Below, one piece after another: positions 12,583 to 16,635 of a stretch of 43,419 nucleotides of DNA. The notes beneath the pieces are model-generated. The model searched no databases. It was given only the letters and a program-made list of their open reading frames with translations, and was not told the DNA's origin. Position 1 is the stretch's first letter, and the number at the start of each line of letters is the position of its first letter. Position numbers and translations under genes: made by a program. Origin of the DNA: Arthrobacter sp. (GTDB lineage Bacteria > Actinomycetota > Actinomycetes > Actinomycetales > Micrococcaceae). Location: the NCBI RefSeq assembly GCF_030540645.1, contig NZ_JAUNVV010000015.1:9281-52699 (forward strand), in the 5' to 3' direction.

Positions 12583-14274
12583 ATGAGCAATCCCGCACCA
12601 GCATCAACCCACCCCGAGGCCACCTGGTGGCGCCAAGCCGCCGTGTACCAGATCTATCCGCGCAGCTTTGCCGACTCCGACAATGACGGCATGGGCGACT
12701 TGCCTGGCATCACGGCCCGCATGGACTACTTGTCGGCGCTGGGAATCGATGCCATCTGGCTCAGCCCGTTCTACCCCTCCGCACTGGCCGACGGCGGCTA
12801 CGACGTCGATGACTACCGCAACGTCGACCCGCGTCTTGGTTCACTGGACGACTTTGACGCCATGGTGGCCGCCGCCCACGAATCCGGCATCAAGATCATC
12901 GTGGACATCGTGCCCAACCACTCTTCAAACTTGCACCCCTGGTTCCAGGCCGCACTCGCTGCGGCTCCGGGCTCCCCAGAGCGCGCCCGCTACCACTTCC
13001 TTGACGGGCTGGGCGAGGAAGGCGAGCTGCCGCCGTCGGACTGGCCCTCCCACTTTGGCGGAGGCGCCTGGACGCGGGTGAAGGAGGCAGCGGGCCCGAA
13101 CGCCGGCCAGCTGGGCCAGTGGTACCTGCACCTTTTCGCTGCGGAACAGCCGGACTTCAACTGGGACAACCCTGAAGTGCGCGAAGATTTCCACACCACG
13201 CTGCGTTTCTGGGCGGACCGCGGCGTTGACGGCTTCCGGGTCGATGTGGCGCATGCGTTGGACAAGGACATGTCCCTGCCGCTGCGCTCCAAGCCGGCAC
13301 TGGAGATCCTGGTCGACGACGGCAGTGACCCGCTCTTTGACCGCGACGCCGTGCATGAGATCTTCGCCGGTTGGCGTTCAGTGCTCAACGAATATGACCC
13401 GCCCAAGGCCGCCGTGGCCGAGGCTTGGGTACCGTTTACTGACCGACGGTTGAAGTACGCCCGCCCCACCGAGCTGGGCCAGGCCTTCAACTTTGATCTC
13501 CTGCAGGCGCACTTTGACGGCACCGAATTCCGCACCATCGCCGAAAAATGCCTCTCCGAGGCCGAGGCATCCGGCGCATCTTCGACGTGGGTGTTTTCCA
13601 ACCACGACGTTGTCCGCCACGCGTCCCGCTACGCGCTGCCTGATGACAGCACCTTGGAGACTCTGGAGGCTTGGCTGCTGAGCGACGGCGTCACTCCGGC
13701 CACGGACTTGGCTCGCGGTTTGCGTCGGGCCCGTGCCGCGACGCTCTTCATGCTGGGGCTGCCCGGATCTGCCTATCTGTACCAAGGTGAAGAACTCGGA
13801 TTGTTTGAAGTGGCCGATCTACCTGCGGCAGCCCTACAGGATCCCACCTGGTTCCGCACACAGCACAAGATCAAGGGCCGTGACGGCTGCCGCGTGCCAC
13901 TGCCTTGGTCCGCCACGGAACTGAACTTCGGATTTGGTGGCACGCCTTGGCTGCCCCAGCCCTCTTGGTTTGCGTTGCAGGCCGCCGACGTACAGGACGG
14001 CACCATTGGCTCAACATTGGAAATGTACCGGGACGCTTTGGCGTTGCGACGGAAACTGCAGACGGAGGAGTCGCTGGAATGGCTCAGCGGTGAATCCGGA
14101 CCGTTGGTGCACTACCGCCGCCCCAACGGCTGGGAAGTGTTGACAAACTTTGCCAACAAGCCCGCACCACTGCCATCCGGCGTCGACGTAGCCAAAGTGG
14201 TGCTCAGCTCCGGCGATCCCGCCGACGCGACCACGACGATCCCGGCAGAGACAACCCTCTGGATCGCCCCCTAA
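12583..14274 (+). CDS. Alpha-glucosidase / oligo-1,6-glucosidase-like, glycoside hydrolase family 13
   Basis: This 563-residue cytosolic GH13 enzyme has the (beta/alpha)8 barrel motifs in order: VYQIYPRSFADSDNDGMGDL, DIVPNHSS (region I), GFRVDVAHALDKD with nucleophile Asp221 (region II), AEAW with acid/base Glu280 (region III) and FSNHDVVRH with the transition-state stabiliser Asp342 (region IV). No signal peptide is seen, so it should act on imported malto- or isomalto-oligosaccharides, releasing glucose. The ATG follows GAGAGGAA. It stands alone, with the repeat-bracketed unit starting 6 nt after its stop. GlgX, about 4 kb away, could supply related substrates. The exact linkage specificity cannot be read from sequence; trehalose synthase is less likely given the length and motifs. 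Confidence 0.9.
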   Translation: MSNPAPASTHPEATWWRQAAVYQIYPRSFADSDNDGMGDLPGITARMDYLSALGIDAIWLSPFYPSALADGGYDVDDYRNVDPRLGSLDDFDAMVAAAHESGIKIIVDIVPNHSSNLHPWFQAALAAAPGSPERARYHFLDGLGEEGELPPSDWPSHFGGGAWTRVKEAAGPNAGQLGQWYLHLFAAEQPDFNWDNPEVREDFHTTLRFWADRGVDGFRVDVAHALDKDMSLPLRSKPALEILVDDGSDPLFDRDAVHEIFAGWRSVLNEYDPPKAAVAEAWVPFTDRRLKYARPTELGQAFNFDLLQAHFDGTEFRTIAEKCLSEAEASGASSTWVFSNHDVVRHASRYALPDDSTLETLEAWLLSDGVTPATDLARGLRRARAATLFMLGLPGSAYLYQGEELGLFEVADLPAAALQDPTWFRTQHKIKGRDGCRVPLPWSATELNFGFGGTPWLPQPSWFALQAADVQDGTIGSTLEMYRDALALRRKLQTEESLEWLSGESGPLVHYRRPNGWEVLTNFANKPAPLPSGVDVAKVVLSSGDPADATTTIPAETTLWIAP

Positions 14275-14280
14275 CCCCTA

Positions 14281-14365
14281 CCGACCCTCCTGCACTTTCG
14301 GGGCGGTCCCACCCGACCCTCCTGCACTTTCGGAGCCACTTCCCACGACGCCTCTGCACTGTCCG
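14281..14365 (+). repeat. Left array: three direct copies of a 21-bp repeat, 32-bp period
   Basis: Copies begin at 14281, 14313 and 14345, exactly 32 bp apart (21-bp repeat plus 11-bp spacer). The first two are identical (core CTCCTGCACTTTCGG); the third is degenerate, matching at about 15 of 21 positions around CTGCACT. The spacers are GGCGGTCCCAC and AGCCACTTCCC. The same unit recurs in inverse orientation at 15485-15537, again with 32-bp period. Confidence 0.85.
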
Positions 14366-14406
14366 CCGCATCCATCACAGCTATGGGGGATAGTGCAGAG
14401 GCGCCT
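14347..14406. promoter_or_regulatory. Long hairpin formed by the degenerate repeat copy and an inverted partner
   Basis: GACGCCTCTGCACTGTC at 14347-14363 and GATAGTGCAGAGGCGCC at 14390-14406 are inverted repeats matching at 15 of 17 positions (one difference allows a G-U pair), separated by 26 nt. It lies about 50 nt upstream of the nuclease gene start and may act as its control region or as the left boundary of the unit. Confidence 0.6.
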
Positions 14407-14414
14407 GTGGATAA
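14406..14414 (-). other. DnaA-box-like 9-mer
   Basis: TGTGGATAA is the exact complement of the consensus DnaA box TTATCCACA. It abuts the hairpin upstream of the nuclease gene. One exact 9-mer in a window of this size is not rare by chance, so function is uncertain. Confidence 0.25.
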
Positions 14415-14453
14415 CTTCTGCGGCCAAGGCACGATCAGGGCCACAATATCTAC

Positions 14454-15398
14454 ATGGACGCACCGCTGAAATCCCGACTCCCTTGCACCCCGTTCACCCT
14501 GCGCGAGGCCGAAGCGCTGGGGCTTTCACCAGATCGACTGCGGTCCAAGAGCTTTGTGGGTGTCGGTCACGGACTGTACAGACCGGCGTCCTGGGACTTT
14601 GAGCTGCGGGATGCGGCCCGGGCACTCTGTGCGGCAACGCCGGGCGCCTGGATCTCACACACGACGGCGGCGCGTCTGCACGGGCTGATTCTTCCACCAT
14701 GGTTGTCAGATTCCAATGAGCTCCACCTCAGCAAGCCACGGAAGCTGGTGGGCGTCCGGAGGAAGGGCGTCATCGGCCATACGGTGCTGGCCCGTGCCGG
14801 GGAAGTTGAGACGGACTGGGACTTGCTGATCAGCACACGCGCCCGGACGTGGCTTGACCTAGCACGGGTCCTTCCACTGCCCGAGCTCACGTGCATCGGC
14901 GACCAACTGATCCGCCTGCCCCGCGCAGTATTCGAGGGCCGCGACACACCATATGCCACGGTTGCCTCGCTACGGACGATGCTGGACGGGCACCGAAACC
15001 TGCAGGGAATTGTCCGCGCGCGTGAGGCCTTGAGCCTTCTGCGGGTGGGCGCCGACTCCGGCCCCGAGACGCTACTGCGCCTTGCCATGCTCGACGCCGG
15101 CCTGCCGGAGCCAGGTCTGCAGCTCACCTTGTGGGAATTGCCGGGTGGACCTTCTGCAGACCTCGGATACCGGAGGCGGAAGGTCGCAATCCAGTACGAC
15201 GGCAGCAGTCATCTGGACGAGCTTCAAGCCCTCAGCGACCAGCGCCGGGACAGCGCCTTCAGAAATGCCGGTTGGACAGTGCTCATCTTTGGCCGCGAAG
15301 ACCTTGCCGACGGTTTTACCAGGGCGGTCCGGCTTGTCAAGAAGACGCTGCGGGGCGCCTGGATGGATCCTGCAGTCAGCGCCGGTTTTTGCTCGTAA
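14454..15398 (+). CDS. AbiEi-like / DUF559 (Vsr-like PD-(D/E)XK) protein
   Basis: This 314-residue protein resembles a family common in Arthrobacter and other actinobacteria. The N-terminal 100 residues resemble the winged-helix and linker part of AbiEi-type proteins (SHTTAARLHGLILPPW is typical). The C-terminal 110 residues resemble the DUF559/Vsr endonuclease fold: Glu205 in GPETLLRLAM, Asp236 in SADLGYRRRKVAIQYDG, and a late NAGWTVLIFG strand. The usual glutamate before YDG is glutamine here (Q247). No AbiEii toxin gene is adjacent. I see no Shine-Dalgarno before the ATG; an ACAATA box about 7 nt upstream would suit a leaderless transcript. The gene is bracketed by inward-facing repeat arrays. 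Its biological role is unknown; nuclease activity is inference. Confidence 0.75.
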   Translation: MDAPLKSRLPCTPFTLREAEALGLSPDRLRSKSFVGVGHGLYRPASWDFELRDAARALCAATPGAWISHTTAARLHGLILPPWLSDSNELHLSKPRKLVGVRRKGVIGHTVLARAGEVETDWDLLISTRARTWLDLARVLPLPELTCIGDQLIRLPRAVFEGRDTPYATVASLRTMLDGHRNLQGIVRAREALSLLRVGADSGPETLLRLAMLDAGLPEPGLQLTLWELPGGPSADLGYRRRKVAIQYDGSSHLDELQALSDQRRDSAFRNAGWTVLIFGREDLADGFTRAVRLVKKTLRGAWMDPAVSAGFCS

Positions 15399-15438
15399 CA
15401 ACTGACCCATTTCCACCACCGTCAAGCACACCTTAAAT

Positions 15439-15475
15439 GCCGGATGCTCCCTCGTGGGGTGAGGGAGCATCCGGC
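15439..15475. terminator. Strong 15-bp terminator hairpin
   Basis: GCCGGATGCTCCCTC and GAGGGAGCATCCGGC form a perfect 15-bp stem with a 7-nt loop, 40 nt after the nuclease gene stop, followed by GTTTG. It can serve both this gene and the convergent ino1. It lies inside the repeat-bracketed unit. Confidence 0.85.
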
Positions 15476-15484
15476 GTTTGCCAC

Positions 15485-15537
15485 CCGAAAGTGCGGCAGC
15501 GTCACCGCCAACACACCCGAAAGTGCAGGAGCGTCGG
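15485..15537 (-). repeat. Right array: two inverted copies of the 21-bp repeat, 32-bp period
   Basis: Copies at 15485-15505 and 15517-15537 are reverse complements of the left-array repeat. The outer copy matches it at 20 of 21 positions; the inner one is more diverged. Start-to-start distance is 32 bp, as on the left. The arrays therefore point toward the gene from both sides. Confidence 0.85.
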
Positions 15538-15555
15538 TGGCGAGGTGGGGCTGGA

Positions 15556-16635
15556 TCAGATGTCGCCGCGAATGAAGGCTTCAACCTTTTCGTGGGCAAT
15601 ATCATCAGCGTACTGCTCCGGCGGGGACTTCATGAAGTAGCTGGAGGCGGAGAGGATGGGCCCGCCAATGCCACGGTCCAGAGCGATTTTAGCTGCACGG
15701 ATGGCATCGATTATCACACCGGCGGAGTTGGGTGAGTCCCATACTTCCAGCTTGTATTCGAGCGAGACGGGGGCATCGCCGAAGTTTCGGCCTTCCAAGC
15801 GGACGAAGGCCCACTTGCGGTCATCGAGCCAGGCAACGTAGTCGGACGGGCCAATGTGGACGTCGTCCTCGCTAAGCACGGCCGAGGTGTTCGAGGTAAC
15901 GGCCTGGGTCTTGGAGATCTTCTTGGATTCAAGGCGCTCGCGCTCAAGCATGTTCTTGAAGTCCATGTTGCCGCCAACATTGAGCTGGTAGGTGCGGTCA
16001 AGGACCACTCCGCGGTCTTCGAACAGTTTGGCCATGACGCGGTGCGTGATGGTGGCGCCGATCTGGGACTTGATGTCATCGCCAACAATCGGAACACCTG
16101 CAGCGGTGAATTTGTCGGCCCATTCCTTGGTGCCGGCAATGAACACGGGCAGAGCGTTGACGAAGGCCACACCGGCGTCAATGGCGCACTGGGCGTAGAA
16201 CTTCGCTGCAGCGTCGGAACCGACGGGCAGGTAGCAGACAAGCACGTCCACCTTGTTTGCCTTCAGCTGGCCAACAATGTCGACGGGCTCGGCGTCCGAT
16301 TCCACAATGGTCTCGCGGTAGTACTTGCCAAGACCGTCCAAGGTGGTGCCCCGCTGAACTTTGACGTCAAGGTTGGGAACGTCGGCAATTTTGATGGTGT
16401 TGTTTTCGCTGGCACCAATGGCGTCGGAGAGGTCCAGCCCCACCTTCTTGCTGTCTACGTCAAACGCTGCAACAAATTGCACATCATTGACGTGGTACTG
16501 GCCAAACTTGACGTGCATGAGGCCAGGAACCTTGACACTGGGATCAGCATCTTGGTAGTACTGGACACCCTGCACCAAAGATGCGGCACAGTTTCCAACG
16601 CCTACGATGGCAACCCGAATAGGATGATTGGACAC
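15556..16635 (-). CDS. ino1: Inositol-3-phosphate synthase, actinobacterial type
   Basis: This 359-residue NAD-dependent enzyme converts glucose-6-phosphate to 1L-myo-inositol-1-phosphate (also named inositol 3-phosphate). The Rossmann motif [16 protein letters not shown] sits at the N-terminus, and the family segments [34 protein letters not shown] and [10 protein letters not shown] are intact. Length matches the short actinobacterial/archaeal form rather than the 510-residue eukaryotic one. The start is GTG at 16635 with GAAGGAG 4 nt upstream. The product feeds MshA for mycothiol and, in actinobacteria, phosphatidylinositol. It ends 19 nt from the repeat-bracketed unit. No operon partner is evident. 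Confidence 0.96.

Follow-up and report, generated by a model that had tools for sequence, protein, structure and literature searches.

A DUF559/AbiEi-like nuclease gene and its own dispersed repeats: a candidate REP-RAYT-like partnership in Arthrobacter

We asked why a nuclease-like gene in an Arthrobacter sp. genome (G000) is bracketed by inverted arrays of one short repeat, and whether gene and repeat belong together. The gene lies in a window of 43,419 nucleotides, the whole stretch of DNA that was analysed (part of contig NZ_JAUNVV010000015.1). Its surroundings are listed in Table 1.

The gene between its arrays

A first-pass annotation of the window had described three direct copies of the repeat on the left and two inverted copies on the right, all spaced at 32 bp and aimed at the DUF559 gene, and this arrangement was confirmed. 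The near-identity that it had claimed for the outermost copies was borne out as well, as this pair is 96% complementary over 23 nt. Unit 3 can pair with its inverted partner through arms at 14349-14367 and 14385-14403 (89% complementary), and this hairpin is a possible operator. The hairpin behind the gene (folding z -7.4) is likely to be a terminator and the counterpart of the central hairpin of the dispersed elements described below. An Rfam search of positions 14000-15800 gave no match up to an E-value of 1.

Table 1. Features of the DUF559 locus (positions in the window)
Feature	Position	Strand	Remark
Left neighbour, GH13 alpha-amylase-family gene	12583..14274	+	syntenic marker
Repeat unit 1, left array	14283..14301	+	begins 8 bp past the GH13 gene end
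Repeat unit 2, left array	14315..14333	+	32 bp from unit 1
Repeat unit 3, left array, variant with 3 mismatches	14347..14365	+	32 bp from unit 2
Inverted partner of unit 3	14388..14404	-	hairpin-forming pair directly upstream of the DUF559 gene
DnaA box TGTGGATAA	14406..14414	+	48 bp 5' of the DUF559 start codon; conserved in the family
CACAAT, possible -10 element of a leaderless promoter	14442..14447	+	putative, from the sequence alone
Gene for AbiEi-like module (~residues 14-138) and DUF559 / PD-(D/E)XK nuclease domain	14454..15398	+	314 aa
Near-perfect hairpin between the DUF559 gene and the right array	15435..15479	none	18/19 bases paired
Repeat unit, right array, inner	15485..15503	-	32-bp array spacing
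Repeat unit, right array, outer	15517..15535	-	32 bp from the inner unit; 20 bp from the ino1 end
Right neighbour ino1, inositol-1-phosphate synthase	15556..16635	-	syntenic marker

The N-terminal module of the protein matched the PADLOC AbiEi profile with an E-value of 9e-10, and Pfam AbiEi_4 at 13.8 bits, under the cut-off of 25. The match to DUF559 was borderline (20.1 bits in the protein search and 21.9 bits in the genome search, with a cut-off of 20.6); the paralog L011 reached 25.9 bits, and the paralogs also matched REase_MTES_1575, under its cut-off. The best match by sequence to a solved structure was the endonuclease-like protein 3hrl (E 0.007). We aligned 70 sequences, namely the protein of this locus and 69 of 71 usable further proteins (L249 and L250 were left out; proteins with stops or of odd length were dropped from the alignment sets), and residues E205, D236, Y248, G250, H253 and D262 were invariant among them. 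At position 247 of the nuclease motif, this protein and its close relatives have Q and the distant paralogs have E.

Gene and repeat in the genomes of the genus

The 19-mer GACSCTCCYGCACTTTCSG of the unit was found at 85 sites in the draft genome when up to three mismatches were allowed (39 and 46 on the two strands; 4 and 3, that is 7, for the reversed pattern), and at 59 sites at up to two mismatches (27 and 32; reversed pattern 0 and 1). As these sites far outnumber those of the reversed pattern, the array is not a product of chance. Fifty-five of the 59 copies lie outside the DUF559 locus. In a usual dispersed element, a central hairpin separates one to three + units at 32-bp spacing from one to three - units, and the distance from the innermost + to the innermost - unit is 73-75 bp in 15 elements, counted by hand. 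According to a simple codon-model gene prediction, with orientations counted by hand, 26 elements are flanked by genes on both sides, and these genes are convergent in 14 cases, co-directional in 12 and divergent in none. Three elements, folded single-stranded, formed two-tier hairpins with z of -12 to -16. Stems inside a single unit are short, at most 4 bp in 44 of 47 units and at most 5 bp in 46, with 7 bp in the remaining one, and the units, read outward, terminate in GCGTC. A dapA-like gene likewise sits between two half-arrays, so such a placement is not peculiar to the DUF559 gene.

The annotation had inferred a repeat family and had suggested checking whether its copies cluster at DUF559 genes. 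In G000, no second DUF559-family gene was found near copies of the GACSCTCCYGCACTTTCSG unit, and the other paralogs carry other repeats. Dispersal far from the gene had been taken beforehand as a sign against a repeat-protein module; it is instead what REP-RAYT systems show, according to the available text of PMC2817692.

We compared 23 genomes of the genus. The order GH13-DUF559-ino1 is kept in 21 of them (G000 and 20 relatives), and at each of these 21 loci a 32-bp array adjoins the gene, on one side or on both. In all 20 relatives, repeats stand on both sides and left and right agree, while their wording is specific to the clade (for example GCTCCTGCACTTTCGG, GCTCGGTTGCAACCGG, GCTCGCTCACATACGG and GCGGTATCACTTTTGG). 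The spacing is constant within the close subfamily: 27 of 28 close members in the genus (at least 58% identity) have a 32-bp tandem upstream or downstream. Among 48 testable other loci at 53% identity or above, tallied by hand and in many cases from the same species as the 23 genomes, 41 have the upstream tandem at 32 bp, one at 31 bp and six not at all. Distant paralogs (n = 68) mostly have no upstream tandem (49), and only one has it at 32 bp. For 260 control genes, tandems of 20-60 bp spacing were seen 15 times upstream (4 at 32 bp) and 24 times downstream (10 at 32 bp), some of them because dispersed arrays are among them. In 20 of 20 loci the DUF559 protein was less conserved than the products of both neighbours; median identities to the corresponding product of this locus were 67% for the DUF559 protein, 82% for GH13 and 95% for ino1.

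The remaining two genomes are G004 and G010. In G004, GH13 and ino1 are ~78 bp apart without the DUF559 gene and its arrays; this is not the clean empty site that the annotation had called for, because a different inverted repeat occupies the gap, and no clean empty site was found. In G010, the best matches among those listed were at only 38% (DUF559 gene) and 64% (GH13) identity, so no ortholog was seen. A further candidate, a DUF559 element that had inserted into a repeat already in place, was rejected as the sole account of the locus, since 21 of 23 genomes have the gene in this position and genomes with other repeat wordings are among them.

The units that we searched over the 23 genomes are frequent only where a family gene carries them. 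Unit A, carried by the DUF559 genes of G000, G016 and G018, has 59, 57 and 60 copies there and 0-17 in the remainder; the 10-17 mismatched hits to its pattern in G006, G009, G011 and G017 include several that are visibly related units of these genomes' own. Unit B is carried by the genes of G009, G014, G022 and G006, with 47, 67, 44 and 8 copies, respectively, so that G006 has the unit at its own gene yet few copies; G005, which has a related unit, has 6 copies, G000 and G003 have one each, and the other 16 genomes have none. The two genomes without an ortholog, G004 and G010, have one and two copies of unit A and none of unit B. The unit of a distant paralog was found 12 times in G000, 9 in G016, 3 in G018, 21 in G019 and 23 in G020 (the latter two being near duplicates) and in none of the other 18 genomes, a few of these hits being the gene's own flanks. 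In addition, we searched twenty 20-kb stretches (400 kb) from arbitrary places in four genomes de novo for arrays of 31-33 bp spacing and found 10. Eight of them, all from G011 and G021, match the cognate unit of their own genome, and none of 30 cross-genome comparisons gave a match; G012 had one array, which did not match, and G002 had none.

Do the dispersed elements move? At least one flank of the G000 elements was shared with G016 elements in 28 of 29 cases and both flanks in 26; this comparison covered element loci only, and empty sites could therefore not appear in it. For G018, the 12 places taken among the matches listed shared at least one flank with G000 or G016 in all 12 cases and both flanks in 10. 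Unit numbers per element vary at these shared sites. Insertion sequences and MITEs are marked by different positions in related genomes; here the positions are shared. Recent mobility is thus not supported, and the 'mobile unit' of the first-pass annotation fares poorly, as 21 of 23 genomes share the site of the gene and the elements too lie at sites common to species.

The wording at some of these sites has nevertheless changed in concert. We took 20 of the ~31 places of unit-B elements in G014, deliberately omitting the gene's own locus, and 6 of the 20 lie at the site of a G000 element (five by both flanks and one by one flank), where 'same site' means a summed tblastx length above 2000, far above the rest and set by eye. 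At these sites the outer units are A in G000 and B in G014. If the elements were placed at random among ~900 convergent sites, which is an assumed number, the expected number of shared sites is 0.6 (binomial p 3e-5 for at least six and 4e-4 for at least five).

Matched flanks, DnaA box and covariation in the wider family

We then measured whether family genes in general stand between matching repeats. The score was that of the best ungapped match between the 300 bp upstream and the 300 bp downstream, with a threshold of 17; inverted and direct matches both counted, because hairpins yield both. The loci came from 60 places among the matches listed, with weaker matches mostly not taken, and L016 (no alignment) and L155 (short flank) were dropped. 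The median score was 33 for 95 family genes, compared to 11 for 260 control genes and 11 for 600 mismatched pairings; some of the latter pair loci of one repeat type, and 63 of the 600 accordingly score 14 or more (largest 85). The threshold was reached by 81 of the 95 family genes, that is 27 of 28 close members and 54 of 67 distant paralogs, and by 3 of the 260 controls. One of these three controls adjoins a dispersed unit of its own genome, judged by wording. Thirteen of the 14 family genes without matched flanks are distant paralogs. A further 79 loci from Arthrobacter, Pseudarthrobacter, Paenarthrobacter, Nesterenkonia, Enemella and others, which overlap in species with the 23 genomes, gave 65 at or above the threshold (L235 was dropped for a short flank).

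Most distant paralogs that we inspected have matching repeats on both sides, usually long hairpins, each with a wording of its own; no repeat matching across both sides was found for L010 and L014. In Enemella evansiae, the unit that flanks the gene has four additional copies elsewhere, each with 2-3 mismatches, and it was absent from the two Nesterenkonia genomes searched alongside.

A DnaA box is conserved upstream of the genes. Of 96 family genes, 77 have the exact TGTGGATAA in the 120 bp upstream, and 67 have it at -45 to -48 (positions counted by hand); 68 of the 79 further loci have it exactly upstream, 60 at -45 to -48, and none of 265 control genes does. In 400 kb of arbitrarily placed sequence, TTATCCACA occurred once. 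The TGTGGATAA 9-mer is also present in the dnaA-dnaN gap of two genus genomes, as three exact copies and three with one mismatch, where dnaA and dnaN were recognised by reading their proteins. Two boxes within 30 bp of each other were found at five places in 4 of the 23 genomes, of which L332 and L335 are, judged from their proteins, the dnaA-dnaN region; in three genomes, neither the starts nor the ends of contigs had a cluster of DnaA boxes. Taken together, the conserved upstream box and the sharing of its 9-mer with the dnaA-dnaN gap suggest, at the level of sequence, DnaA-linked expression of the family gene.

Unit and protein also change together. For 47 unit-protein pairs (12 of 59 units, whose phase was unsure, were removed by eye), unit distance correlated with protein distance with r of 0.39. 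The wording covaries with a segment of the AbiEi-like domain: corrected for the rest of the protein, the partial r for residues 61-140 was 0.39 (p 0.003, the lowest value that 300 permutations allow), compared to 0.14 for residues 1-60 (p 0.03), -0.03 for residues 141-195 (p 0.61) and 0.09 for the nuclease part (p 0.11). The best 20-residue window was 91-110. At residue 110, T goes with C at unit position 6 (31/31), N with GCA at positions 6-8 (7/7), R with GTA at the same positions (2/2) and K with AT at positions 6-7 (3/4). The mutual information between residue 110 and positions 6-7 was 1.30 bits compared to 0.40 ± 0.08, and none of 1000 permutations was as high; these permutations ignore relatedness. 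A relatedness-aware test over supported branches left 3 independent pairs, one of which agrees and two of which have an unchanged unit, a number with which significance cannot be reached. For both reasons we treat residue 110 as a candidate code only.

Known systems, rival explanations and a proposed mechanism

The annotation had likened the locus to REP sequences with their RAYT proteins, as a coevolved repeat-protein module, and this comparison has stood up: the matched flanks, the cognate dispersal and the covariation of unit and protein all speak for it. As described in PMC2817692, RAYT genes are marked by two inverted flanking REPs, coevolution with them, fast evolution, repeat abundance that tracks the gene, and orthologs that stay in place. 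The DUF559 gene likewise has inverted copies of its repeat on either side, with further copies spread over the same genome; repeat abundance tracks the presence of the gene (weakly for G006, with 8 copies), gene and repeats change together while orthologs keep their place, and the gene outpaces its neighbours in evolution. The two systems differ in the enzyme, which is a HUH Y1 transposase in RAYTs and an AbiEi-like module with a PD-(D/E)XK nuclease here; Y1_Tnp (PF01797) was not found in the DUF559 protein, whose matched profiles were DUF559 and AbiEi_4. They also differ in the 32-bp tandem arrays of units that are singly hardly palindromic, in copy number (tens here, usually >100 for REPs) and in the DnaA box upstream of the gene.

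Other known systems resemble the locus in part. CGTC-tagged REPs (Di Nocera et al. 2013, PMC3733652) share the outward GCGTC ends, the inverted pairs and the location downstream of genes, but have stems of 8-9 bp and loops of 4-5 bp, and no such stem was seen in the 47 units measured here. In the text available, they are assigned to five phyla without mention of Actinobacteria and are said to 'apparently lack a dedicated transposase'. AbiE type IV systems share the N-terminal AbiEi match, and the sites bound by AbiEi proteins are 23-bp inverted repeats that precede their own genes (PMC7319586, in the text available); here, however, no AbiEii nucleotidyltransferase toxin gene is adjacent, a nuclease is fused, and the repeats stand at both gene ends and genome-wide. 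Vsr-like and DUF559 proteins share the C-terminal domain with its conserved acidic and histidine residues, whereas this gene has no adjacent methyltransferase and has an extra DNA-binding module and the repeats. In the open-access literature, searched by titles and abstract openings, nothing joined DUF559 or AbiEi-nuclease proteins to dispersed repeats; a RepRanger table of REP counts, in the part available, includes an Arthrobacter (PMC12306157).

Could the arrays have another explanation? The protein may be a nucleoid-associated or insulating DNA-binding autorepressor, with the arrays as selected binding sites at gene ends and a nuclease that is vestigial or serves another purpose. That AbiEi relatives are DNA-binding autorepressors (PMC7319586, same text) agrees with this, as do the absence of elements between divergent genes and a spacing that suits one helix face. 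However, tens of sites switching to one new wording are not readily explained by a repressor, nor is the invariance of E205, D236 and H253, and we consider this reading rather unlikely. It is also improbable that we are dealing with a selfish or defence system, in which the nuclease attacks DNA lacking (or carrying) the repeats and the arrays serve as self marks or homing targets: the AbiEi similarity was indeed found in a library of defence proteins, and a Vsr-like DUF559 protein of Caulobacter damages DNA when a methyltransferase is missing (PMC12907096, in its available part), but the adjoining genes here are GH13 and ino1, neither toxin nor methyltransferase, and the gene has kept its place in nearly all genomes.

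A mobile element whose terminal inverted repeats are the arrays, so that the gene moves as a unit, would account for the bracketing, for further copies of 63-69% identity at other sites in at least six genomes among the matches listed, and for G004, where the gene is missing between GH13 and ino1. We regard this as very improbable given the constant site of the gene and the dispersed elements at sites common to species. Least credible of all is that the repeats are ordinary bidirectional terminators beside which the gene lies by coincidence, or that a RAYT spread them in trans. The gene-end location and the stable two-tier hairpins would suit terminators, but the difference in matched flanks between family genes (81/95) and controls (3/260) does not, and the unit counts over the 23 genomes already contradict this explanation. 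A RAYT acting in trans was rejected, as Y1_Tnp was found in just 2 of the 23 genomes, and neither G000 nor G016 is one of them.

The module of gene and repeats is real and general in Arthrobacter and related soil bacteria. We think it fairly probable that it is a two-part genomic system, REP-RAYT-like with an unrelated enzyme, in which the protein cuts at the arrays and repair homogenises the units. In such a system the AbiEi-like module and the PD-(D/E)XK (Vsr/DUF559-type) nuclease would act as one protein that recognises the ~21-bp unit both in the arrays beside its own gene and at tens of gene ends elsewhere. As 32 bp is about three helical turns, bound protein molecules would lie on one face of the helix. 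The protein may nick or cut the arrays, perhaps at replication, when they could extrude as hairpins; units would then be added, removed and homogenised by repair from a different cognate copy. This homogenisation would hold the arrays in a form that the protein can read, so that gene and repeats would change together, and the conserved DnaA box would make expression DnaA-linked and timed to replication. Direct binding, cleavage, gene conversion and control by DnaA are what we infer from the patterns above. The wider proposal is of a large actinobacterial AbiEi-nuclease family with several paralogs in each genome, each of which would actively rewrite private repeats, reading its unit through a specificity segment at ~91-110 and spreading its preferred wording over the chromosome by replication-timed cutting and gene conversion. 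It is more tentative, and we hold it to be slightly less probable than its opposite.

In bacteria, the pairing of an enzyme with dispersed repeats of its own is exemplified by REP-RAYT, and what we describe looks like a second, independently evolved version of this partnership. If true, each such protein would drive tens of gene ends to concerted change, and REP-RAYT would have an independent counterpart built on a nuclease of the restriction-enzyme fold. An unrelated nuclease that follows this logic would demonstrate that enzymes and repeats pair up repeatedly in evolution. It would also suggest a function for the large group of 'DUF559 / AbiEi-like' proteins and explain why hairpin arrays stand at gene ends in Arthrobacter-type genomes, and it would provide a series of naturally occurring switches in protein-DNA specificity, along with a candidate residue code for them.

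Repeat units around a dapA-like gene and at indel borders

The layout of the DUF559 gene recurs around a dapA-like aldolase gene, which in the window's own genome (G000) is flanked by two half-arrays of the same repeat; in G016, a dapA-like gene likewise has a half-array on either side (locus L273). Repeat units also lie at the borders of an insertion or deletion: in G000, units at loci L036/L037 are ∼5.4 kb apart, whereas the G016 counterpart (L286) is a single two-unit element. In a second indel, seemingly also bordered by repeat units, an element of G018 (L295) has its flanks at two separate G000 elements ∼3.8 kb apart.

Coordinates of the loci described (L, extracted locus; C, contig)
Feature	Genome	Locus	Contig
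dapA-like gene	G000	L039:3001-4103	C136:5354-6456
Units ∼5.4 kb apart	G000	L036/L037	C129:3313-8721
Elements ∼3.8 kb apart	G000	L040:3001-6913	C138
GH13-ino1 gap	G004	L095:3174-3252	
Third DUF559 gene copy	G003	L106	C1:1421826-1422733

Sites and possibly damaged copies of the DUF559 gene

The GH13-ino1 gap of G004 lacks the DUF559 gene and contains a different kind of inverted repeat, TCTCGACAAGCTCGACC. In G005 (L058), the gene carries a single in-frame TGA and the arrays are still present. The third copy in G003 may be decaying, because among the matches listed it is split into two overlapping ones. Second copies in G015, G011, G021 and G017 (L071-L074) have a right-hand neighbour that, judged by eye, is seemingly common to all four, and their position seems to be another conserved site for the DUF559 gene family.
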